A stretch of 64,000 nt of DNA from Sneathiella marina (GTDB lineage Bacteria; Pseudomonadota; Alphaproteobacteria; Sneathiellales; Sneathiellaceae), in NCBI RefSeq assembly GCF_023746535.1, contig NZ_CP098747.1, positions 62,001 to 126,000 on the forward strand, written 5' to 3'. The position numbers and the translations under genes are program-made. This document shows positions 9,419 through 53,735 of the stretch, piece by piece (within the stretch, counting starts at the first letter, position 1; each line of letters starts with the position of its first letter). A model generated the notes under the pieces. The model did not search any database, was not told the origin of the DNA, and saw nothing but the letters and a program-made list of their open reading frames with translations.

Positions 9419-10270
9419 ATGGGCGGCATAATCTGGTTGGCATCCTACCCTAAGTCCGGGAACACCTGGACGCGAACGTTTATTCATAATCTTTTGACCA
9501 ATCCGGATAAGCCAGCAAATATAAACGAGCTTGATACGTTCACGATGGGCGACGCCAGTGCGCCTTCCTATGAAAAAGTCGCAGGAAAACCTCTTTCGGA
9601 AATATCCGGTAAAGAATTGTCAACACTGACGCCAAAGGTGCACCGAGCCTATGCTATGAGTCGCCCCGATTCAGTGTTTGTAAAAACCCATAGCTCATTT
9701 GGGTCTGTTTATGGAACACCCTTGATAACCATGGAATACACCGCCGGTGCAATTTATATTATCCGCAACCCCCTAGATGTCGTTATCTCTCTTTCCGACC
9801 ATTTTGGGTTGGACTTGGAAGGCGGAATTGATCTTTTGAATAACCCAAAAGGTATTGCCGGCGCCCCAGCGGATAAAATGGGTGCACGAGGTGGACAGAT
9901 TGAACAAATATTAGGCTCTTGGTCAGGACATGTAACATCCTGGCTACCGTTTAGCCGACAGCATTTTCATTTAATGCGATATGAAGATATGTTAGATAAG
10001 CCTGAAGAAACCTTTCGAAATATGGGGCGGTTTTTGGGCCTAAATCCACCGGAAGAGCGGTTGAACAAGGCGATAGAATTTTCGTCTTTTAAAACGGTCA
10101 AAAAGCAGGAAGAAGAAAAGGGTTTTTTTGAGCAATCACCTAAAACAGATAGCTTTTTTCGAGTTGGCAAGGCAGGTCAATGGAAAGATGTTCTGTCAGA
10201 CAAGCAGGTAGACAGAATAGTCGACTGTCATCGTGAGACTATGAAACAATTCGACTATTTGCCGAAATAG
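9419..10270 (+). CDS. Sulfotransferase-family protein, tandem copy 1
   Basis: A cytosolic sulfotransferase of about 283 residues that should move a sulfo group from PAPS to an acceptor. The 5'-phosphosulfate loop is YPKSGNTW at residues 10-17. FVKTHS and the 3'-phosphate-binding YIIRNPLDVVISLSDH stretch are also present, and the C-terminal FFRVGKAGQWKD matches the family's GxxGxWK motif. I choose ATG 9419 because both tandem paralogues begin with the same MGGI(I/V)WLASYPKSGNTW; an upstream TTG would add 11 unsupported residues. It is the first of three paralogues, each separated by exactly 30 bases. The acceptor is unknown; cell-surface glycans or small metabolites are possible. Confidence 0.85.
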   Translation: MGGIIWLASYPKSGNTWTRTFIHNLLTNPDKPANINELDTFTMGDASAPSYEKVAGKPLSEISGKELSTLTPKVHRAYAMSRPDSVFVKTHSSFGSVYGTPLITMEYTAGAIYIIRNPLDVVISLSDHFGLDLEGGIDLLNNPKGIAGAPADKMGARGGQIEQILGSWSGHVTSWLPFSRQHFHLMRYEDMLDKPEETFRNMGRFLGLNPPEERLNKAIEFSSFKTVKKQEEEKGFFEQSPKTDSFFRVGKAGQWKDVLSDKQVDRIVDCHRETMKQFDYLPK

Positions 10271-10300
10271 AAGCGACTTCGCAGATTTGGGAATAAAAAA

Positions 10301-11131
10301 ATGGGCGGCATTGTTTGGTTGGCTTCTTATCCAAAATCCGGAAACACCTGGATCAGAACCTTTCTACATAACCTCCATTTCGACCCGGCGAAACCGTTTG
10401 ATATTAACATGATTTCAAGCCTGACCTATGGTGACGGCGGCAAAACCTGGTATGAAAAAGCCAGCGGGAAACCCTTCGATGAATTAACCCCTCAGCAAGT
10501 TGCCAGGCTTACACCAACGGTTCACATGGCCTTTGCCAATATGAGACCGGGGCCGGTGTTCGTAAAAACACACAGCGCTGTTGGCTCCCTCCATAATGTT
10601 CCTCTTATTACGATGGAATGTACAATCGGCGCAGTCTATATTGTCAGAAACCCCCTGGACATAGCCGTTTCCATGGCAAGCCATTATGATATGGATCTGG
10701 ATGAGAGCATTGATATGTTGAATAATCCCCGGGCGACAGCTCGGGGCAGTGAGGGCAAAGTAGCTCAGATATACGGATCCTGGACAAGCCATGTGGGATC
10801 CTGGCAAGAACAACGAGGCGCGAAAATGCTGACATTAAGGTATGAGGATTTATTGACGAAGCCCCGAAAGACCTTTAGTGCCTTGACCCATTTCCTCCAG
10901 TTAAAACATTCTCGAAAACAGCTTGAAAAAGCGATTAAATTCTCTTCGTTTGATAATTTAAAAAAGCAGGAACTGGAAAAGGGGTTTAAGGAAAGACCCA
11001 ATGATAAAGACCTGTTTTTTCGCGTTGGAAAAGCGGGCCAATGGAAAGAGTTATTATCTGACGATCAAAAAAATCGAGTTATCGATTGCCACCAACATAT
11101 GATGAAGGAGTTTGGCTATCTTCCTAAATAG
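10301..11131 (+). CDS. Sulfotransferase-family protein, tandem copy 2
   Basis: A 276-residue paralogue of the flanking genes with all PAPS-binding elements: YPKSGNTW near residue 10, FVKTHS, YIVRNPLDIAVSMASHY, and C-terminal FFRVGKAGQWKE. It differs most from the other two in the middle section, including the acceptor-side residues, so the three enzymes probably differ in substrate. It starts 30 bases after copy 1 and is likely in the same transcript, with GGGAAT before its ATG. Confidence 0.85.
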   Translation: MGGIVWLASYPKSGNTWIRTFLHNLHFDPAKPFDINMISSLTYGDGGKTWYEKASGKPFDELTPQQVARLTPTVHMAFANMRPGPVFVKTHSAVGSLHNVPLITMECTIGAVYIVRNPLDIAVSMASHYDMDLDESIDMLNNPRATARGSEGKVAQIYGSWTSHVGSWQEQRGAKMLTLRYEDLLTKPRKTFSALTHFLQLKHSRKQLEKAIKFSSFDNLKKQELEKGFKERPNDKDLFFRVGKAGQWKELLSDDQKNRVIDCHQHMMKEFGYLPK

Positions 11132-11161
11132 CATTGCCGCCTTATTTTCGGAGCACACTCA

Positions 11162-12013
11162 ATGGGCGGGATAATCTGGCTGGCATCCTATCCCAAGTCC
11201 GGTAATACCTGGGTTCGGACGTTTTTACACAATTTGCTGACCAACGCCGAACGGCCAGCAGATTTGAATGAGTTGTCCAAATTCACTATCGGAGATGGCA
11301 ATAAAGGCTGGTATGAAACGGTTTCTCGAAAGCCATTTGATAGCTTAAGCCCTGAGGAGGTCGCAGCGCTTATCCCAAAAGTTCAAGAAGCATATGCCCG
11401 GTCTCGACCTGACTCCGTTTTTGTAAAAACACATAATTTTCTTGGCAAGATACTTGATGTCCCGTTGATCACTCCGGGTTTTACGGCTGGCGCCGTATAT
11501 ATTGTTAGAAATCCATTGGATGTTGTCATTTCACTTTCGGATCATTATGGATTGCCTCTTGATGACGGTATTGGAATGCTGAATGATCCGGACGCCTATA
11601 GCGCGGAAACTGATCGAAAAGTTCAGGATTACCTGGGATCTTGGTCCGACCATGTGAAAAGTTGGGAGACCATGGAGAAATCCATGTGTCATACCATGCG
11701 ATATGAAGACATGCTTTTCAAACCCGAGAAGACGTTCGGTGGGTTGGCAAAATTTCTTGGTTTAAATCCACCTAAGCAACGATTGCGACGCGCGATCAAG
11801 TTTTCCTCTTTCGGGGCATTGCAAAAGCAAGAAAAAGAAAAAGGATTTAATGAACGGTCCGATAAAACAGAAAAGTTTTTTCGGGTTGGTAAGGCCGGAC
11901 AATGGAAAACAGCCCTTAACCCAGAGCAGATTGACAGAATTACGACAGCTCATTCGCATATGATGGAGAAGTATGGGTATATGCCGAAAGCTCGTAAAAC
12001 AGACAAATTGTAG
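11162..12013 (+). CDS. Sulfotransferase-family protein, tandem copy 3
   Basis: A 283-residue paralogue with the same fold and motifs: YPKSGNTW, FVKTHN, YIVRNPLDVVISLSDHY and FFRVGKAGQWKT. By eye it is closer to copy 1 than to copy 2, for example in the shared PLDVVISLSDH and SRPDSVFVKTH blocks. It has a slightly longer, basic C terminus. GGAG precedes the start. No polysaccharide or glycosyltransferase gene lies nearby to suggest the acceptor. Confidence 0.85.
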   Translation: MGGIIWLASYPKSGNTWVRTFLHNLLTNAERPADLNELSKFTIGDGNKGWYETVSRKPFDSLSPEEVAALIPKVQEAYARSRPDSVFVKTHNFLGKILDVPLITPGFTAGAVYIVRNPLDVVISLSDHYGLPLDDGIGMLNDPDAYSAETDRKVQDYLGSWSDHVKSWETMEKSMCHTMRYEDMLFKPEKTFGGLAKFLGLNPPKQRLRRAIKFSSFGALQKQEKEKGFNERSDKTEKFFRVGKAGQWKTALNPEQIDRITTAHSHMMEKYGYMPKARKTDKL

Positions 12014-23129: not shown

Positions 23130-23867
23130 ATGGAAACATCATCTATTACAATTCATCAATTCCCGCCATTTCTGCAGATGCAGGCGAGCCCTTTTGGCCT
23201 GAAACTCGAAACATGGCTCAGAATGAAGAAAATTCCTTATGAAACAGAGGTTTCCTTCACCAAAATGGGCCCGAAAAATAAAGTTCCTTTTGCAACAATT
23301 GATAATGATGTGATTGGAGACAGCGAGCTGATCATTGACCGGATTAAAATGGACATGGCACCGTCAGGTTTGACGGACCCTTTACAAGAGACAGCACCAA
23401 ATGACATTTTGATCCGTCGGCTAGTAGAAGAACATTTGTATTTTGTTCTCATGCATAGCCGTTGGATCGACGAGGATGGTTGGGCTTCTTTTCAGCCGTT
23501 GGTTTTCGGGCACATACCGCCAATTATTCGTTCGCTCATATCTCGAAAAATCCGCAAGATTGTAAAGCGCAATCTGCTGGCGCAAGGAATTTCGCGGCAT
23601 AGTAACGAGGAAATCTACGCTAAAGGCGCTATAGATATCGAGGCTCTTTCGAATGCTCTTGGAAATAAACAGTATTTTGCGGGGACAGCGCCCGGTCTCG
23701 TCGACGCGTCCGCTTACGGTTTCATCGCCAATCTGCTTTACGCGCCGTTGCGTAGCCCTTTGCTCGCGGCTGTTAAAAAACATCCCAATCTGGTGGCGTA
23801 TGGCGATCGCATGCGGCGGGAAGTTTGGCCAAATTCTCCACGAGGCGGAGGTGAATTAGCAGCCTAG
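23130..23867 (+). CDS. Glutathione S-transferase family protein, metaxin/Tom37-like
   Basis: A 245-residue thioredoxin-fold/GST protein. The N-terminal domain has SPFGLKLETWLRMKKIPYE and KVPFATIDNDVIGDSELII, the pattern of the metaxin/FAXC subgroup. The C-terminal helical domain includes GLVDASAYGFIANLLYAPLRSPL. Family members conjugate glutathione or act as non-enzymatic GSTs; the substrate is unknown. Divergent placement with the WYL regulator suggests induction by a small molecule, perhaps an electrophile. Confidence 0.85.
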   Translation: METSSITIHQFPPFLQMQASPFGLKLETWLRMKKIPYETEVSFTKMGPKNKVPFATIDNDVIGDSELIIDRIKMDMAPSGLTDPLQETAPNDILIRRLVEEHLYFVLMHSRWIDEDGWASFQPLVFGHIPPIIRSLISRKIRKIVKRNLLAQGISRHSNEEIYAKGAIDIEALSNALGNKQYFAGTAPGLVDASAYGFIANLLYAPLRSPLLAAVKKHPNLVAYGDRMRREVWPNSPRGGGELAA

Positions 23868-23872
23868 CAGAG

Positions 23873-24811
23873 TTACTTGGATTGGGTATAAACGAGGATG
23901 GCGGCGGCGAGATCTTCCAGGGCTGCGCCAGTGGATTTGAAAAGAGTAATTTCGGTTTCACTGGTGCGGCCGCCATGATTGTTTGCGCAAAGACCAAAAA
24001 GATCTGCCTTGATGTCGGATTTTTTGATAATTCCGTCATTCAGGGGTTGTACGATATCACCCGCTTCTTGTAGCCCTCCTTCAAAAGTGTCGACAAACAG
24101 GCTGGTGACTGTAACGGCCGTATCATCGCATTCACGCATGGCAGGTGTGAATGCGCCGACCAAATCAAGATGTGCTCCGGGTTTCAGCCAGCCGCCCCTG
24201 ATTATGGGATCTGTTGACAGGGTGGCGCAGGATATTATATCAGCCGCCCTTGCTGCTTCTTCCAGGTTGTCAACAGCGCGCACCGGCAAACCTTTCTTTG
24301 CCAGAGTGTTCGCAAGTGCTACTGCCTTGTCACCATTATGGTTCCATATTTTAATGTCCGTCAGTGGGTGAACAGAACGATGAGCGTCGATCAGATAAGG
24401 CGCCAGGGCGCCAGCGCCGACCATCAGGAGCGAGCTTGATGTCTTGCGGGCGAGATATGAGGCGGCGAGGGCGGATGCAGCGGCGGTACGGCGTAAAGTA
24501 AGCTCACCCGCGTCCATAATGGCAACAATGCTGCCATTGACCGCATTGAAAAGTGTATAGTTTCCCTGCACGGAAGGCAGGCCTTTGGAGCCGTTTTCCG
24601 GCATGACGGTTACCATTTTCACACCCAGATACCCGTCTTTTTGCCAAGCGGGCATCAGCAAAAGCATTCCTTGCTGTGCATCATCCTTGTCCAGCGGATG
24701 ATGGTGCCGGAGCGGCATGGTACAGCCTGACCGGAACATGTCTTTTAGGGCATCAATTAAATCAGGATAAGATAATGCAGCTGCAACATCTTGTGGGCTG
24801 AAGATCCGCAT
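23873..24811 (-). CDS. Ornithine cyclodeaminase / mu-crystallin family protein
   Basis: A 312-residue NAD(P)-binding protein with HHHPLDKDDAQQGMLLLMPAW, the GNYTLFNAVNGSIVAIMDAGELT strand-loop region and RRTAAASALAASYLARK, followed by a Rossmann segment beginning LLMVGAGALAPYLIDAH. Members convert ornithine to proline or reduce ketimines, and the exact substrate cannot be fixed. It is convergent with the GST gene (five bases apart) and follows lapA on the same strand. Confidence 0.88.
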   Translation of the reverse strand: MRIFSPQDVAAALSYPDLIDALKDMFRSGCTMPLRHHHPLDKDDAQQGMLLLMPAWQKDGYLGVKMVTVMPENGSKGLPSVQGNYTLFNAVNGSIVAIMDAGELTLRRTAAASALAASYLARKTSSSLLMVGAGALAPYLIDAHRSVHPLTDIKIWNHNGDKAVALANTLAKKGLPVRAVDNLEEAARAADIISCATLSTDPIIRGGWLKPGAHLDLVGAFTPAMRECDDTAVTVTSLFVDTFEGGLQEAGDIVQPLNDGIIKKSDIKADLFGLCANNHGGRTSETEITLFKSTGAALEDLAAAILVYTQSK

Positions 24812-31003: not shown

Positions 31004-31079
31004 GGGGCCATAGCTCAGTTGGGAGAGCGCTTGGATGGCATTCAAGAGGTCGTCGGTTCGATCCCGTCTGGCTCCACCA
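31004..31079 (+). tRNA. tRNA-Ala (anticodon GGC)
   Basis: A 76-base tRNA with encoded CCA. The acceptor stem contains the G3:U70 wobble pair that marks alanine tRNAs, the D arm reads GCTC...GAGC, the anticodon loop is ATGGCAT with anticodon GGC, and the T loop is TTCGATC. One T-T mismatch occurs in the T stem. Its 3' 45 bases are repeated at 53691-53735, so the gene is the island's integration site and its 3' part has been replaced by the element's copy. Confidence 0.95.
31035..31079 (+). repeat. attL core: 3' end of tRNA-Ala
   Basis: The 45 bases from ATGGCATTC to CCACCA are identical to 53691-53735. The identity extends three more bases (TTG) on the 5' side across one mismatch. This copy completes the functional tRNA gene. 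Confidence 0.93.
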
Positions 31080-31212: not shown

Positions 31213-31242
31213 TTATTATAGTTGTGAGCTAAACTATAATAA
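31213..31242. promoter_or_regulatory. Inverted-repeat operator abutting the MerR-like gene
   Basis: Arms TTATTATAGTT and AACTATAATAA are perfectly complementary, with an eight-base spacer (31224-31231). The right arm ends on the first base of the MerR-like ATG. TATTAT or TATAGT within the arm could serve as a -10 box, so protein binding here would block both transcription and initiation. No ribosome-binding site fits between it and the ATG. Confidence 0.7.
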
Positions 31243-31673
31243 TGATAATAGAACATGCATACTATGTCAAAGACGCGGCACGTCTTAGTGGTCTGACCGT
31301 CACGATGGTAAATTATTTATGCCGAAGTGACGTATTAACACCGTCTTTGAATTACAAACCAGGTAGGGGGAGAGCACGCCAATACAGCTTCGGCGATATT
31401 GTGATTTTGAGAGCGCTAGCAAAGCTGCTATCTTTCGGAGTCTCTGTGGCTAGAATTAAAGTTGCTTTAAAGACGATTAAAAATCGACACCCAGAAATTA
31501 CACCGAACACGTTACCAGCGAGATATCTGGTTACTGACGGAAATCAAGTCTTCCTTAGACAGAATGGAGCGACGCTAGAAACTTTGGATGAGTCAGGGCA
31601 AATGTCTTTTATTTTTGTAATAGAATTACAATCTCTATGTAATGAAGTCGTAGCTGCAACAATGGAGGCTTAA
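31242..31673 (+). CDS. MerR-like transcriptional regulator
   Basis: A 143-residue protein with an N-terminal MerR-type helix-turn-helix and wing: YYVKDAARLSGLTVTMVNYLCRSDVL, then GRGRARQYSFGDIVILRALAKLLSFGVSVARIKVALKTI. The C-terminal part is short and lacks the metal-binding cysteines of classic MerR. A palindromic site touches its start codon, pointing to autoregulation. Its stop shares one base with the next gene's ATG, so it leads a three-gene cassette. Confidence 0.8.
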   Translation: MIIEHAYYVKDAARLSGLTVTMVNYLCRSDVLTPSLNYKPGRGRARQYSFGDIVILRALAKLLSFGVSVARIKVALKTIKNRHPEITPNTLPARYLVTDGNQVFLRQNGATLETLDESGQMSFIFVIELQSLCNEVVAATMEA

Positions 31674-32257
31674 TGATGACAAACTTATTGAAACTAAGTC
31701 CAATTGGAAATGCCGCAGAAGAACTTTTTGCGCTTCAAAAAGAACAATTGGAGCACGACAGTATTTATCATAAGGATATATGTTCGCTTAGCGTTCAACA
31801 ACGTATGAACCATTATGCACTGCATTTTGCCAAATATGCAGGATATTTTGTTGAAGCATTACATTCTGAGGACCAAGAGAAATTTAATAAGGCAGCTGTA
31901 GATAGCTTTATTATAGCTCTTTCGACAGCAAATACATTAAATGTTGACTTGGGCAGCAGTCTACCCGAATTGGCTAAAAAAAGATGTTTAAAGGAGTTTG
32001 AAACGAAATCCCATTCATCTAAAACTAAACCTTCGTTTATTTTTTCTTTTGTTGAAATAGTCGGCAAGCTCTCAAAAGCATGTGAATCTGTAGATCATCT
32101 TGAATCATATCCATTTAGAAAAGAAATGATTAAATGTATTCAAGAAATTCTACTCGCGACCCTCAATCAAGGGCCGATACTAAAGATAAATTTGCCAGAT
32201 GAAGCACGTAATCGTCTCGCATCGGTTAAGGAAAGAAATATTTTTCATAATCGGTAG
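31673..32257 (+). CDS. Helical protein with weak MazG-like repeats
   Basis: A 194-residue soluble helical protein. It seems to hold two related segments: FAKYAGYFVEAL...AAVDSFIIALSTANTLNVDL and FVEIVGKLSKACES...IKCIQEILLATLNQGPILKINL. Both resemble the two-helix pattern of MazG-like all-alpha NTP pyrophosphohydrolases (the xxxGxLxxAxE and DxxxxLxxxAxxLxxDL stretches), but most catalytic acidic residues are missing in the first. The similarity is faint and could be wrong; a profile search would decide. ATG 31673 or 31676 both follow GGAGG. It sits between a MerR-like and a dCTP-deaminase-fold gene. Confidence 0.7.
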   Translation: MMTNLLKLSPIGNAAEELFALQKEQLEHDSIYHKDICSLSVQQRMNHYALHFAKYAGYFVEALHSEDQEKFNKAAVDSFIIALSTANTLNVDLGSSLPELAKKRCLKEFETKSHSSKTKPSFIFSFVEIVGKLSKACESVDHLESYPFRKEMIKCIQEILLATLNQGPILKINLPDEARNRLASVKERNIFHNR

Positions 32258-32277
32258 TTTGATGGAAAGAGGGATTC

Positions 32278-33099
32278 ATGACGTTTTGGAGTGGTGATAA
32301 ACTTCAAGCCAATCTTAATAATATACTTGAAGATTATAGTGCCGATCCCATCGATTGTGCAGCTTACCAACTTAGAATGGGGACCGAAGTATATATTACC
32401 CCGCATGGTCACGATCCGGATAAAAGCAAATCTACAGTAATAAAACTTGAAGAAAAGCAGGGTTTTACAATACCTGCTGGTCAATTTGCGTTTTTGTTGA
32501 CAGAAGAAAAAATAAAAATTCCCAAAAATTGTTTGGGACTAATATCGATGAAAGCTAAGATTAAGTTTAAAGGCCTAATAAATATATCAGGATTTCATGT
32601 TGATCCAGGCTACGAGGGAAAACTTGTATTTGCTGTATTTAATGCTGGTCCGCACGTTATTCACTTGAAAAGAGGCAAGCCGCTTTTTCTTCTTTGGATC
32701 GCAGATCTTGATAGTGACGCATCTGAACAGTATACAAAGAAATTTGAAGGAAATACTTCGATTTCAACTGAAATAATTCCCCCCGGAAGCATTTCTTCAA
32801 TGCAAGCATTGCAGGAGGAAATTTATAGAATTGACAAAGAGATAGCATTCTTCAAATCGTTTCGAAGTGCGTTTTTTACAATACTAAAGGGCGTGGGTTT
32901 TGCAATTATGTTGGCGATTGCCATAGTCGGCTTATATTTTGCTTATTTACCTGTTACAGACTTTGAAAGCGAAGGAAGTGAACCGGTTGGAAAGCACAAG
33001 ACTATGAACCAAGAAAGTTCGAAAAATCCTATTAGAGAAGAGACCAACGAAAACAAGGTGCTGGATTTAAAAAGCAACGCAACCGAACCAGGTAAATAA
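32278..33099 (+). CDS. Membrane-anchored dCTP-deaminase/dUTPase-fold protein
   Basis: A 273-residue protein. Residues 28-145 match the Dcd/dUTPase beta fold: an AYQLRMGTEVYI strand, IPKNCLGLISMKAKIKFKGL, FHVDPGYEGKLVFAVFNAG and a following KRGKPLFLLWI. The catalytic Glu of dCTP deaminase (in VLEFYN of E. coli) aligns with Ala119, and the conserved Arg aligns with Lys, so deaminase activity is unlikely. A short coiled coil (about 174-195), one transmembrane helix (about 203-225) and a hydrophilic tail follow. GAGGG precedes the start. It may sense nucleotides at the membrane; the function is not known. Confidence 0.75.
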   Translation: MTFWSGDKLQANLNNILEDYSADPIDCAAYQLRMGTEVYITPHGHDPDKSKSTVIKLEEKQGFTIPAGQFAFLLTEEKIKIPKNCLGLISMKAKIKFKGLINISGFHVDPGYEGKLVFAVFNAGPHVIHLKRGKPLFLLWIADLDSDASEQYTKKFEGNTSISTEIIPPGSISSMQALQEEIYRIDKEIAFFKSFRSAFFTILKGVGFAIMLAIAIVGLYFAYLPVTDFESEGSEPVGKHKTMNQESSKNPIREETNENKVLDLKSNATEPGK

Positions 33100-35919: not shown

Positions 35920-36360
35920 ATGACTGAGTTACATATAGACTCGAAATCCGTAAATTACGATAGACGTTCTGCACTTAAGGGTGCTGCACCGCTTCCGCTA
36001 ATCCCTTTCATGCTTCCAAATGGTGATGAAGCACTAGCCGCACCGCCTAAAGACCGCGCGGTGCGCCTGTGGCGTGAGTGGCGAGCGCACAAGCCAATTG
36101 TTGATGGACTCATTGACGAAGCAGAAGAAACGGAAAACACTGATATTTCGGAAGATGATTTTGCTAACCTTGAAGCCCGCCTTGACGCGGCGCTCGCCCG
36201 TGATCTGGAGCTAGAAATTGCAGTTATGACCGAACGCCCGACAACTGGCGAGGGTGCGGGCCTGCGATTAAAGACCATACTTGATTGCGAGTGGGTTAAC
36301 GATACCGACTATCTGGCGCTTTTCATTAAAGACCTTGTTGGTTTCGGGAGGTTATCATGA
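35920..36360 (+). CDS. Hypothetical protein with RR-motif N terminus
   Basis: A 146-residue protein. Residues 15-35 read DRRSALKGAAPLPLIPFMLP, a twin-arginine-like motif followed by a weakly hydrophobic stretch, then an Ala-rich region and an acidic helical domain (HKPIVDGLIDEAEET and ARLDAALARDLELE). Export by Tat is possible but the hydrophobic region is short. AAGGAG lies before the ATG. It overlaps the next gene by four bases, and the next gene has the same DRR(S/T)ALKG element, so they are probably related. Confidence 0.65.
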   Translation: MTELHIDSKSVNYDRRSALKGAAPLPLIPFMLPNGDEALAAPPKDRAVRLWREWRAHKPIVDGLIDEAEETENTDISEDDFANLEARLDAALARDLELEIAVMTERPTTGEGAGLRLKTILDCEWVNDTDYLALFIKDLVGFGRLS

Positions 36361-36944
36361 CCAATTCCGTAAACCTTGATAGACGTACTGCTTTAAAGGG
36401 AGTCGCCCTTATTCCGCTAGCAACGGTGCCTTTGCGTTCCTCCCCCGTAGCGATAGACCCCTCCTTAGTCTTATGGGACGCCTATGAGACACAGGAACAG
36501 ATTGAAATGGTTGCGAGCGATTGCCTTGATCTTGCAGAGGCGGAATTACCTTCCGGTAAATATAAGTTCAAATATGGTAAGGTTTCGAACCATGAGGAAT
36601 TGGACGAATGCCGAAAGGCTTGGCAGGGTTTTAACAATGCGCGGGGTACCCAGAAAGACATCGATGAAGAATTTGCTAAATATCACAAAGGTTTGGACCA
36701 GGTTATTGCAAAACGTGAGACTGCTAAGGAGGCACTCAATATAGATGCTTTGGAAGCAGACTATAATCGTCAGTTAGAAAAAGGTCGCCAGTATCTAAAT
36801 GACTATTTTTCAAGCACTCCGACCACACCAGAAGGCTTGGCAAAGATGGTAGAAAACCACTTTGTCTTTGATGCCAGTAAATACGAAAAGGCTAAGGAAA
36901 GGTTCCTTGCTGATCTGCCCGAAATGTTAAGGGGGCTATCATGA
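36357..36944 (+). CDS. Second hypothetical protein with RR-motif N terminus
   Basis: A 195-residue protein with DRRTALKGVALIPLATVPL near the N terminus, repeating the element of the preceding gene. The rest is charged and helical (QEQIEMVASDCLDLAEAELPS, then long Lys/Glu helices). Start and stop overlap both neighbours by four bases (ATGA), so translation of the three genes is coupled. No family assigned beyond similarity to island proteins with an RRxxLK N terminus. Confidence 0.65.
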   Translation: MTNSVNLDRRTALKGVALIPLATVPLRSSPVAIDPSLVLWDAYETQEQIEMVASDCLDLAEAELPSGKYKFKYGKVSNHEELDECRKAWQGFNNARGTQKDIDEEFAKYHKGLDQVIAKRETAKEALNIDALEADYNRQLEKGRQYLNDYFSSTPTTPEGLAKMVENHFVFDASKYEKAKERFLADLPEMLRGLS

Positions 36945-52356: not shown

Positions 52357-53547
52357 TTATCCGTCGTCTGCCAATGAGAGGTTCGCCTTGCCTGAAGCCA
52401 TCATAATATTTTCACCGTGCGCCTCCATTGCTTCTCGTGCAGGGTCATCGCCGAGACGGGCATAAATCAGCGTTGTCGCAATGTTTGAATGTCGAAGCGC
52501 TGATTTAATAACGTTCAGATCAACGCCAGTTTGAGTTAACCAGCTTCCTACAGACCGCCGTAAATCATGCAATTGCAAATCTTCGACCTCTGCTGCTTTG
52601 CGAACTCGACGCCATGCCTTGTCAATGTTAACGATGTGCTTCCCTTTAATTCTTCCGGGGAACAGGTAATGGTTCTTTTCTTCTGCTGGTATCGCGTTAA
52701 TTATCGCCATAGCGGAGGCACTAAGCGTTACTTCCTGTTCTTCACCTGATTTCGTATCAGGAAGCCGGAGCATTTGCCGAGAATTGTCTATGTCTGACCG
52801 TTTCACCCGTAAAAGCTCGTTCTTGCGCAGGCCCGTCAAAAGATAAAGCCACATGGCAGAGCGAACATAAATACTCTGCTCCTTATCAATTGCCTTTGCG
52901 AGTGCAGGAAGTTCCTCTTGGGTTACAAATCGCTTGCGCTTGTACTCCCTGAATTTCTTGATACCCGTCGCGGGGTTCTCTGTTCCCTTGTCCATAAAAT
53001 ACCAGCTTTGCGCTTTCTCAAAGATGACGCGCAGGAGGTCTAAGGTCCGGTTGGCTTCATATGGCGCATTGACGCCAACCCTGGCATGAAGGGCGCTCAC
53101 GTCATCTCGATTGATAGATGCGACAAGGCGGCTGTTCCAGGACGCGGGTATGTGGCGGTTGAGTCTGCTTTCGTCTGTCTTCCATGTTTTCTTGTGAGGT
53201 TTTGCGTGGTCTTGAATGTATTTGTCGCAAAGTTCTTTGAAATTTTTACCCTGGGAATGCTTTTTTCGTTCCTCTAACGGGTCCTTACCATCACGAACAT
53301 CGACACGGTGTGCTTTTGCCCTATCCCTAGCCTGTTCAAGAGTGAGATCTGCGCCGAACCTGCCAAGAGTAAGAAGCCGTTTGCGACCCTGCGCCCTGTA
53401 CCTGAGAATGAAAGCCTTTTTGCCAGAGGGGTAGATACGAACACCGAAGCCGGGGATAGTTTCATCCCATCGAACATCTGTTCCGCCAGCATAGACGAAG
53501 CTGTCAATTGACCGCTTGGTGAGTTTATGTATGCTTTGAGTGACCAT
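52357..53547 (-). CDS. Tyrosine-type site-specific integrase
   Basis: A 396-residue recombinase. An arm-binding N-terminal domain (DETIPGFGVRIYPSGKKAF, YRAQGRKRLLTLGRFG) precedes a SAM-like core-binding domain and the catalytic domain. The catalytic residues are Arg in LTGLRKNELLRV, His and Arg in LHDLRRSVGSWL, His in ALRHSNIATTLIYARLG with the nucleophilic Tyr. I choose ATG 53547. It sits 144 bases from the attR core and reads inward. The start codon overlaps an AGTGACC motif, so it may regulate itself. Confidence 0.93.
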   Translation of the reverse strand: MVTQSIHKLTKRSIDSFVYAGGTDVRWDETIPGFGVRIYPSGKKAFILRYRAQGRKRLLTLGRFGADLTLEQARDRAKAHRVDVRDGKDPLEERKKHSQGKNFKELCDKYIQDHAKPHKKTWKTDESRLNRHIPASWNSRLVASINRDDVSALHARVGVNAPYEANRTLDLLRVIFEKAQSWYFMDKGTENPATGIKKFREYKRKRFVTQEELPALAKAIDKEQSIYVRSAMWLYLLTGLRKNELLRVKRSDIDNSRQMLRLPDTKSGEEQEVTLSASAMAIINAIPAEEKNHYLFPGRIKGKHIVNIDKAWRRVRKAAEVEDLQLHDLRRSVGSWLTQTGVDLNVIKSALRHSNIATTLIYARLGDDPAREAMEAHGENIMMASGKANLSLADDG

Positions 53548-53569
53548 TTCGAGTGACCTATAAGTGACC
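53539..53569 (+). promoter_or_regulatory. Putative integrase arm-type sites, right end
   Basis: AGTGACC occurs at 53539-53545, 53552-53558 and 53563-53569. The last two form AGTGACC-TATA-AGTGACC, which matches 16 of 18 bases of the left-end motif at 31127-31144 in the same orientation. The first copy overlaps the integrase start codon. Confidence 0.65.
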
Positions 53570-53690
53570 GCTCTATACAGTATCATATGGGGTATATTCA
53601 GTAAACCACGTAATGTGTAACAAGAGAAATCCTTGATAAATGGGGGGTTACAGTAACACAGAGTATAGTCGCGTATCTAAGAACAGTTGA

Positions 53691-53735
53691 ATGGCATTCA
53701 AGAGGTCGTCGGTTCGATCCCGTCTGGCTCCACCA
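53691..53735 (+). repeat. attR core: duplicated tRNA-Ala 3' end
   Basis: Identical to 31035-31079 over 45 bases, from the anticodon loop to CCA. The 5' half of the tRNA is missing, so this is a non-functional fragment left by integration. Confidence 0.93.

Follow-up and report, generated by a model that had tools for sequence, protein, structure and literature searches.

What might a compact cassette do for its host when it couples a MerR-family regulator (gene A) to a protein of an unnamed family (gene B) and to a protein with the fold of deoxycytidine triphosphate (dCTP) deaminases and dUTPases (Dcd/dUTPase fold; gene C)? This question is raised by a locus of Sneathiella marina, which lies in a 64,000-nucleotide stretch of contig NZ_CP098747.1 (positions 62,001 to 126,000; hereafter the window, whose own numbering is used throughout). 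A-B-C is one operon behind an inverted repeat, and the cassette is real. We tentatively favour reading it as a pared-down module that would sense and hydrolyse nucleotides, probably as an anti-phage measure, in which C is very unlikely to be a deaminase and B would be the enzyme.

A three-gene operon behind a conserved inverted repeat

Genes A, B and C (Table 1) are three open frames on the + strand, with A and B overlapping by 1 base and B and C separated by 20 bp. Coordinates and gene calls agree with the cassette of three coupled genes described in a first-pass annotation made from the DNA letters alone. The regulator proposed there is borne out as well, with A matching MerR_1, the winged helix-turn-helix domain of MerR proteins, above the Pfam cut-off (PF13411; E = 1.5e-7, 31.9 bits versus 21.6).

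The inverted repeat named in the same annotation is present as described and is conserved at two other MerR-B-C loci. Its arms are perfect (TTATTATAGTT-GTGAGCTA-AACTATAATAA), with the end of the right arm overlapping the MerR ATG by one base, and a repeat search also reports a longer, imperfect pair spanning this dyad. Positions 31217-31238 hold the exact core, TATAGTTNNGAGCNNNACTATA; with up to 3 mismatches allowed, this core has 2 matches in the window, both of them this site, once per strand (shuffle mean 0.08). Among 107 loci compared, the exact core was found in 6 (L001, L100, L103, L002, L020 and L084), each time at a MerR-B-C trio, and was absent from all others. L001, L100 and L103 are copies of the window region, while L002 and L020 are one locus, reached twice, from a relative in the window's genus; together with L084 (Sphingosinicella), this gives the two other full trios found, both with a like dyad ending at the MerR ATG. 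Because the exact core adjoins MerR in both of these and at no other locus compared, the repeat looks operator-like and is probably the MerR operator. Promoter predictions around the dyad were near chance (8 found versus 5.8 expected).

Gene C keeps the Dcd/dUTPase fold and has lost the deaminase glutamate

C matches the DCD family of Pfam (PF22769; E = 1.1e-13, 52 bits versus a cut-off of 27) and scores 74.2 bits against NCBIfam TIGR02274, under the curated cut-off of 92.8. Its AlphaFold model has a confident DCD domain and a helix at residues 175-223 (mean predicted local distance difference test score (pLDDT) 86), then a low-confidence tail. Foldseek retrieved dCTP deaminases and dUTPases (2yzj, E = 1e-11; 1xs4, E = 1.4e-11), with template modelling (TM) scores to target of up to 0.88. 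The 'DCD domain' of PMC7641849 was rejected as a lead: there the name stands for Development and Cell Death, an unrelated domain.

A profile scan of genome contigs with C yielded 214 relatives, of which the best 80 were kept (L020-L099) and underlie every count of 80 loci given here. Most records of C relatives are named for proteobacteria, the others for cyanobacteria and further phyla, and many are metagenome bins. The C alignment holds 94 sequences from 96 loci with a C match: the window copies L001 and L100 were left out, while both L002 and L020 were kept. In HMMER alignments, Ala119 of C falls on E138 of Escherichia coli Dcd, and this deaminase glutamate is lost in 93 of the 94 rows (S 60, A 31, T 1, G 1); the sole E belongs to a distant row, L004. 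Two controls, the genome's own Dcd (L102) and the Dcd of L105, keep Glu at the same column. At the Ser position of the phosphate motif, 68 rows have A and 13 have S, and the second Arg of that motif is F, W or Y in 76; D109, a basic residue at position 92 (K or R) and N122 are kept in all 94. The Arg-Ser phosphate motif and the catalytic Asp are hallmarks of dUTPases, by which C gives a mixed picture.

Because the Glu is lost, the Ser and the second Arg are usually replaced and the controls keep the Glu, dCTP deamination catalysed by C appears very unlikely, and we rejected C as an active dCTP deaminase; it may still carry out other chemistry. The annotation 'deoxycytidine triphosphate deaminase' on four plasmid records (L005, L011, L012 and L013) is therefore misleading. 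A hydrophobic segment of 19 residues follows the DCD domain in 89 of the 94 rows, and in the model the helix 175-223 holds most of it. Three first-pass statements, namely the Dcd fold, the lost catalytic Glu and the membrane anchor, are thus supported, the last as a predicted helix with a hydrophobic segment. The accompanying label 'catalytically dead' finds support for deamination only, since archaeal dUTPases of the same fold (8y1w and 9ln0), which are among the best solved matches to the model of C, also lack the Glu, with Met at its position; the label narrows to 'not a deaminase'.

Gene B represents an unnamed, all-alpha family

No family was found for the window's B in Pfam (best E = 0.12, not above cut-off), NCBIfam (zero matches) or PADLOC; its one match is to PHROG 19333, an unnamed entry with no function given (E = 4.1e-15). 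The family alignment comprises 53 rows from 56 loci with a B match, L001, L018 and L100 having been left out as copies. Q22, Q25, D29, H33, H47, H51, K54, Y55 and D77 are invariant in all 53 rows, and H28, E138, D141, H142 and E144 are kept in 52. The AlphaFold model is all-alpha (pLDDT 89, predicted TM score 0.87). Against viral models, two Foldseek matches reach E = 0.001, namely the homologue of phage Acj9 (1.3e-5) and an unnamed protein, and weaker matches include proteins with MazG-like or nucleoside triphosphate pyrophosphatase (NTP-PPase) names (probability 0.95-1.00, TM about 0.3-0.6, E = 0.02-0.63).

The metal motif of MazG is EExE...ExxD. The conserved Glu residues of B are limited to E138 and E144, so it has no conserved EExE, and of ExxD only the Asp (D77) is conserved. 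Pfam searches with 38 B members gave no MazG match, and 14 unrelated families were each hit in 1 of the 38 (best E = 0.0011). The absent motif and the lack of MazG matches rule out B as a canonical MazG. The first-pass term 'MazG-like' therefore narrows to a weakly MazG-like predicted fold with a different active site. On weak evidence, B may consist of two MazG-like halves joined in a single chain, whose active-site residues would be a new set.

Homologues of B also occur in Acinetobacter phages: in Acj9 (L016, 4992-5576) the gene is part of a series flanked by dexA (exonuclease) and a topoisomerase gene, the fetched flanks containing no C, and phages 133 and Ac42 have homologues by tblastn. 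On a plasmid of the archaeon Natronomonas (L008, 4992-6536), B is followed by a SLATT-domain protein and then a TIR-domain protein, again with no C in the fetched flanks.

C is usually accompanied by B or by MazG

B lies directly upstream of C on the same strand in 40 of the 80 loci, with order and strand uniform in all 40. Co-occurrence elsewhere, a check named at first pass, is borne out for this pair, and for all three genes together only at the two other trio loci. Scored beside C, B was present in 40 loci, the MazG cluster in 34, both in 3 and neither in 9 (Fisher p = 1.3e-10, with related loci not being independent). One or the other is therefore near C in 71 of the 80 loci, and the two are rarely found together. 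Of the 80 loci, 26 span less than 14 kb because their contigs end. Pairwise distances of B and C correlate with r = 0.62 in 43 loci (after removal of five near-copies), against a maximum of 0.16 among 1000 permutations. An Acinetobacter plasmid (L007) carries two copies of the B-C region, at 10050-11400 and 23145-24494, the first in several broken frames.

Two sets of MerR matches were rejected as kin of the cassette. The MerR relative on a Bradyrhizobium quebecense plasmid (L105, 4046-6977) belongs to a different operon, in which MerR is joined by proteins of 145 aa and 462 aa, the longer one with an HExxH motif seen by eye, and by a Dcd-like protein whose catalytic Glu is intact. Among 20 plasmid records with a MerR match, two more that were examined, from Gordonia and Rhodococcus, had no B or Dcd annotated nearby.

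Relatives of C often lie amid nucleotide-modification genes

C-type proteins recur in records named for several phyla, often amid nucleotide-modification genes. The 80 loci include an HMUDK-type kinase cluster in 55, a thymidylate synthase (TS)-like cluster in 40, ImmA/IrrE in 39, AcpS-like in 28 and helix-turn-helix proteins in 24, followed by C1 peptidase (12), DUF1643 (11), Nmad2 (8), ThsB-like TIR (7), uracil-DNA glycosylase (UDG)-like (7) and MerR (2). These counts are lower bounds: each cluster is named after one representative, the helix-turn-helix label comes from record annotation and the UDG match is under the Pfam cut-off. Among the 40 B loci, modification-type genes are wholly absent only from the MerR trios L020 and L084, as they are from the window. 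A DUF1643 gene is present elsewhere in genome G000, unlinked to the cassette. The recurrent TS-like cluster (44 loci; for example L090, 5533-6402) has zero Pfam matches and matches an NCBIfam thymidylate synthase model at E = 3.9e-6, far below its cut-off.

The cassette occupies the tRNA end of an island

The last 56 bases of the tRNA-Ala gene are 93% identical to the attR repeat; these end repeats and the tyrosine integrase therefore bound a 22.7-kb island (Table 1). A-B-C begins 162 bp past the tRNA-Ala gene, at the tRNA end, where G+C is 37-40%, which agrees with the first-pass placement at an island end. Of 24 genomes searched in the genus, two (G000 and G008) contained C. The L020 locus has a tRNA-Ala(GGC) gene 5.3 kb upstream of its trio, and the L084 trio begins 203 bp past a tRNA-Gly gene. 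Since tRNA or tmRNA genes are present in the fetched DNA of just 12 of the 80 genome loci, we claim no general tRNA link for C loci. A candidate empty island site was rejected: in relatives where both could be placed, the FYDLN gene and the gene beyond attR do not lie close together.

Elsewhere in the island, a KilA-N protein (PF04383; 38067-38867, - strand) matches the PADLOC BstA model with its C-terminal part (E = 1.6e-16). Two adjacent proteins encoded at 35920-36360 and 36357-36944 (+ strand) have twin-arginine-like N-termini by eye and zero Pfam matches.

Table 1. Features of the cassette and its island in the window
Feature	Position	Strand	Basis or remark
tRNA-Ala (GGC)	31004-31079	+	ARAGORN; 3' part (31024-31079) is the attL end repeat
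Probable MerR operator, 11-bp arms TTATTATAGTT / AACTATAATAA, 8-bp spacer	31213-31242	.	Inverted repeat
Gene A, MerR-family regulator, 143 aa	31242-31673	+	PF13411 match
Gene B, 194 aa, all-alpha, unnamed family, predicted fold weakly MazG-like	31673-32257	+	PHROG 19333, AlphaFold
Gene C, 273 aa, Dcd/dUTPase-fold head, helix 175-223 including hydrophobic segment, low-confidence tail	32278-33099	+	
Tyrosine integrase of the island	52357-53586	-	PF00589 (E = 1e-27), PF13356 (E = 9.7e-18)
attR, other island end repeat	53680-53735	+	Direct repeat with the 3' part of tRNA-Ala

A candidate mechanism and its alternatives

In the reading that we favour, and which we hold tentatively at somewhat short of an even chance, A-B-C would be island cargo, a module of two proteins that acts on the nucleotide pool and regulates itself, with C sensing, B hydrolysing deoxynucleoside triphosphates (dNTPs) and phage replication coming to a stop. 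MerR would hold expression of the operon low and self-limiting. Dcd family proteins usually form a trimer, and C might do so at the inner membrane, its heads facing the cytoplasm, binding a pyrimidine deoxynucleotide without deaminating it. B, as the enzyme of the pair, would be a (pyro)phosphohydrolase for nucleotides, MazG-like in kind: a pseudo-dimer formed by a single chain, whose metal site is non-canonical. Together they may monitor the pool of DNA building blocks for signs of phage attack: infection would shift the pyrimidine dNTP pool, by depletion or through phage-modified dNTPs, and cause ligand exchange on C, which would release or activate B, so that dNTPs are destroyed and phage replication is halted. 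In relatives, a MazG protein takes the position of B, among TS-like genes and genes with a 5-hydroxymethyldeoxyuridine (5hmdU)-DNA-kinase domain. According to PMC4827122, dCTP deaminases are cooperatively regulated by dTTP, a property that would suit a sensor role of a Dcd-fold protein. A bolder version, speculative and on the whole unlikely, sees a new immune pair: a Dcd trimer that is tethered to the membrane and does not deaminate would detect how phages alter the pyrimidine dNTPs and would control a novel hydrolase of MazG fold, with His, Asp, Glu and Lys in its active site. The pair would be both a stand-alone, MerR-controlled unit and the exchangeable core of 5hmdU-kinase defence operons.

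A number of results weigh against this sensor-hydrolase proposal. For B, Foldseek against solved structures gave nothing significant (best E = 0.14), a profile search of the Protein Data Bank reached the nucleotide pyrophosphohydrolase 5ie9 weakly (E = 0.15, with D77 on the Asp of the EELGD helix), and the hhalign probabilities that link it to MazG are low (35 for the second half and 14 for the whole protein). The two halves of B likewise resemble each other weakly (hhalign probability 38). PADLOC gave no convincing match for any of the three proteins: the best for A (mad1, E = 0.0036) and B (Cas1d, E = 0.0078) were weak and partial, and C had none at E ≤ 1. Charges flanking the hydrophobic segment of C leave its topology unsettled, with family means of 0.34 and 0.21 and +3/-3 in the window's protein.

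The pairing of B and C is also looser than the proposal would like. They are not obligate partners: 40 of the 80 loci have C and no B, and on two haloarchaeal plasmids and in phage Acj9 the fetched flanks of B contain no C. Other operon genes co-vary with B and C as well (with B: KIN, r = 0.60; ImmA, r = 0.87), and the B-C correlation therefore does not single out this pair. On a quick C tree of 88 rows (6 excluded for being short, partial, distant or duplicate), the best topology implies 5 changes between B and MazG, of which well-supported branches force 1. At least one exchange beside C is thus firmly supported by the tree and more than one is likely, and repeated replacement is not established. 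Finally, an HMUDK search found nothing in G000, G008 or G144, while the L046 genome, searched as a control, gave 1 match. As the window's genome has no match to the partner kinase, function may not carry over from the relatives.

The neighbourhood of C also invites a housekeeping explanation, which we regard as unlikely: C and B or MazG would clean or channel pyrimidine dNTPs (dUTP, 5-hydroxymethyl-dUTP) for a DNA-base-modification pathway, and the window would hold a leftover or generic pool cleaner and no immune sensor. The HMUDK, TS-like, MazG and UDG-like genes counted above are what such a pathway would predict, but two genomes that carry A-B-C, those of the window and of the L002/L020 relative, gave no HMUDK match in a search for which the L046 control is positive, and the loss of Glu, Ser and Arg together with a membrane segment would ill suit a plain pool enzyme. 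Roles could also be reversed, with C an altered but real, membrane-tethered, dUTPase-like hydrolase and B its regulator or sensor. The archaeal dUTPases that likewise lack the Glu, and the retention of D109 and the basic residue 92 in every row, are consistent with this; the frequent replacement of the phosphate-motif Ser and second Arg in C, and the density of invariant catalytic-type residues in B, make it quite improbable.

The compactness of the operon, its conserved dyad and its place on a mobile island, together with a B gene next to SLATT-domain and TIR proteins in L008, would also suit an abortive or toxin-antitoxin-like module whose main benefit is upkeep of the island, C being toxic at the membrane or B toxic through dNTP loss, with the partner as restraint and MerR as autoregulator. 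Yet B and C each occur alone in fetched flanks, unlike a strict toxin-antitoxin pair, and neither of them matched a known toxin or antitoxin family in Pfam, NCBIfam or PADLOC; we consider such a module improbable. It seems very improbable that the cassette is a non-functional remnant of a larger operon, as the partner genes missing from it but found near most relatives could suggest, given that its three frames are open, that B retains the conserved residues of its family and C its core motifs, and that the same trio and dyad recur at two other loci.

Relation to known systems

In a literature search over titles and the opening parts of abstracts, with few subscription papers among them, no membrane-anchored Dcd-like protein paired with B was described. 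C shares the fold, the VDP core and Asp109 with the dCTP deaminase/dUTPase superfamily (PF22769, TIGR02274; E. coli Dcd, Thermococcus pacificus dUTPase 8y1w), from which it differs in the missing deaminase Glu, the mostly replaced Ser and second Arg, and the additional long C-terminal helix with its hydrophobic segment. Anti-phage systems in which dCTP deaminases deplete dNTPs share with our proposal the theme of the dNTP pool as a target of defence. Those systems use active deaminases with the zinc-dependent cytidine-deaminase fold, whereas C has a dUTPase-type fold, lacks the deaminase Glu and has no PADLOC match.

B, for its part, is weakly near phage MazG-like models of the all-alpha NTP pyrophosphohydrolases (PF03819) in predicted fold, with D77 aligned to the Asp of ExxD, and 31 of the 80 loci lack B and have MazG next to C; in contrast to MazG, the B family has neither a MazG match among its 38 members nor EExE.

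A further close setting is that of 5hmdU-kinase/TS operons (HMUDK_hel PF18723, Nmad2, MazG_C), which are candidates for defence through nucleotide modification. In the DefensePredictor study (PMC13092281), a 5-hydroxymethyluracil kinase and thymidylate synthase are among the domains newly validated in anti-phage defence, and MazG, MazG-C, a dUTPase and related domains are predicted to be defensive, without validation. The resemblance of C loci to these operons, in which most have the HMUDK cluster and half the TS-like cluster, is one of domain type. The window keeps MerR-B-C alone, with no HMUDK match in its genome. This stand-alone cassette is the smallest version found, and the role of the pair can therefore be tested with two or three genes.

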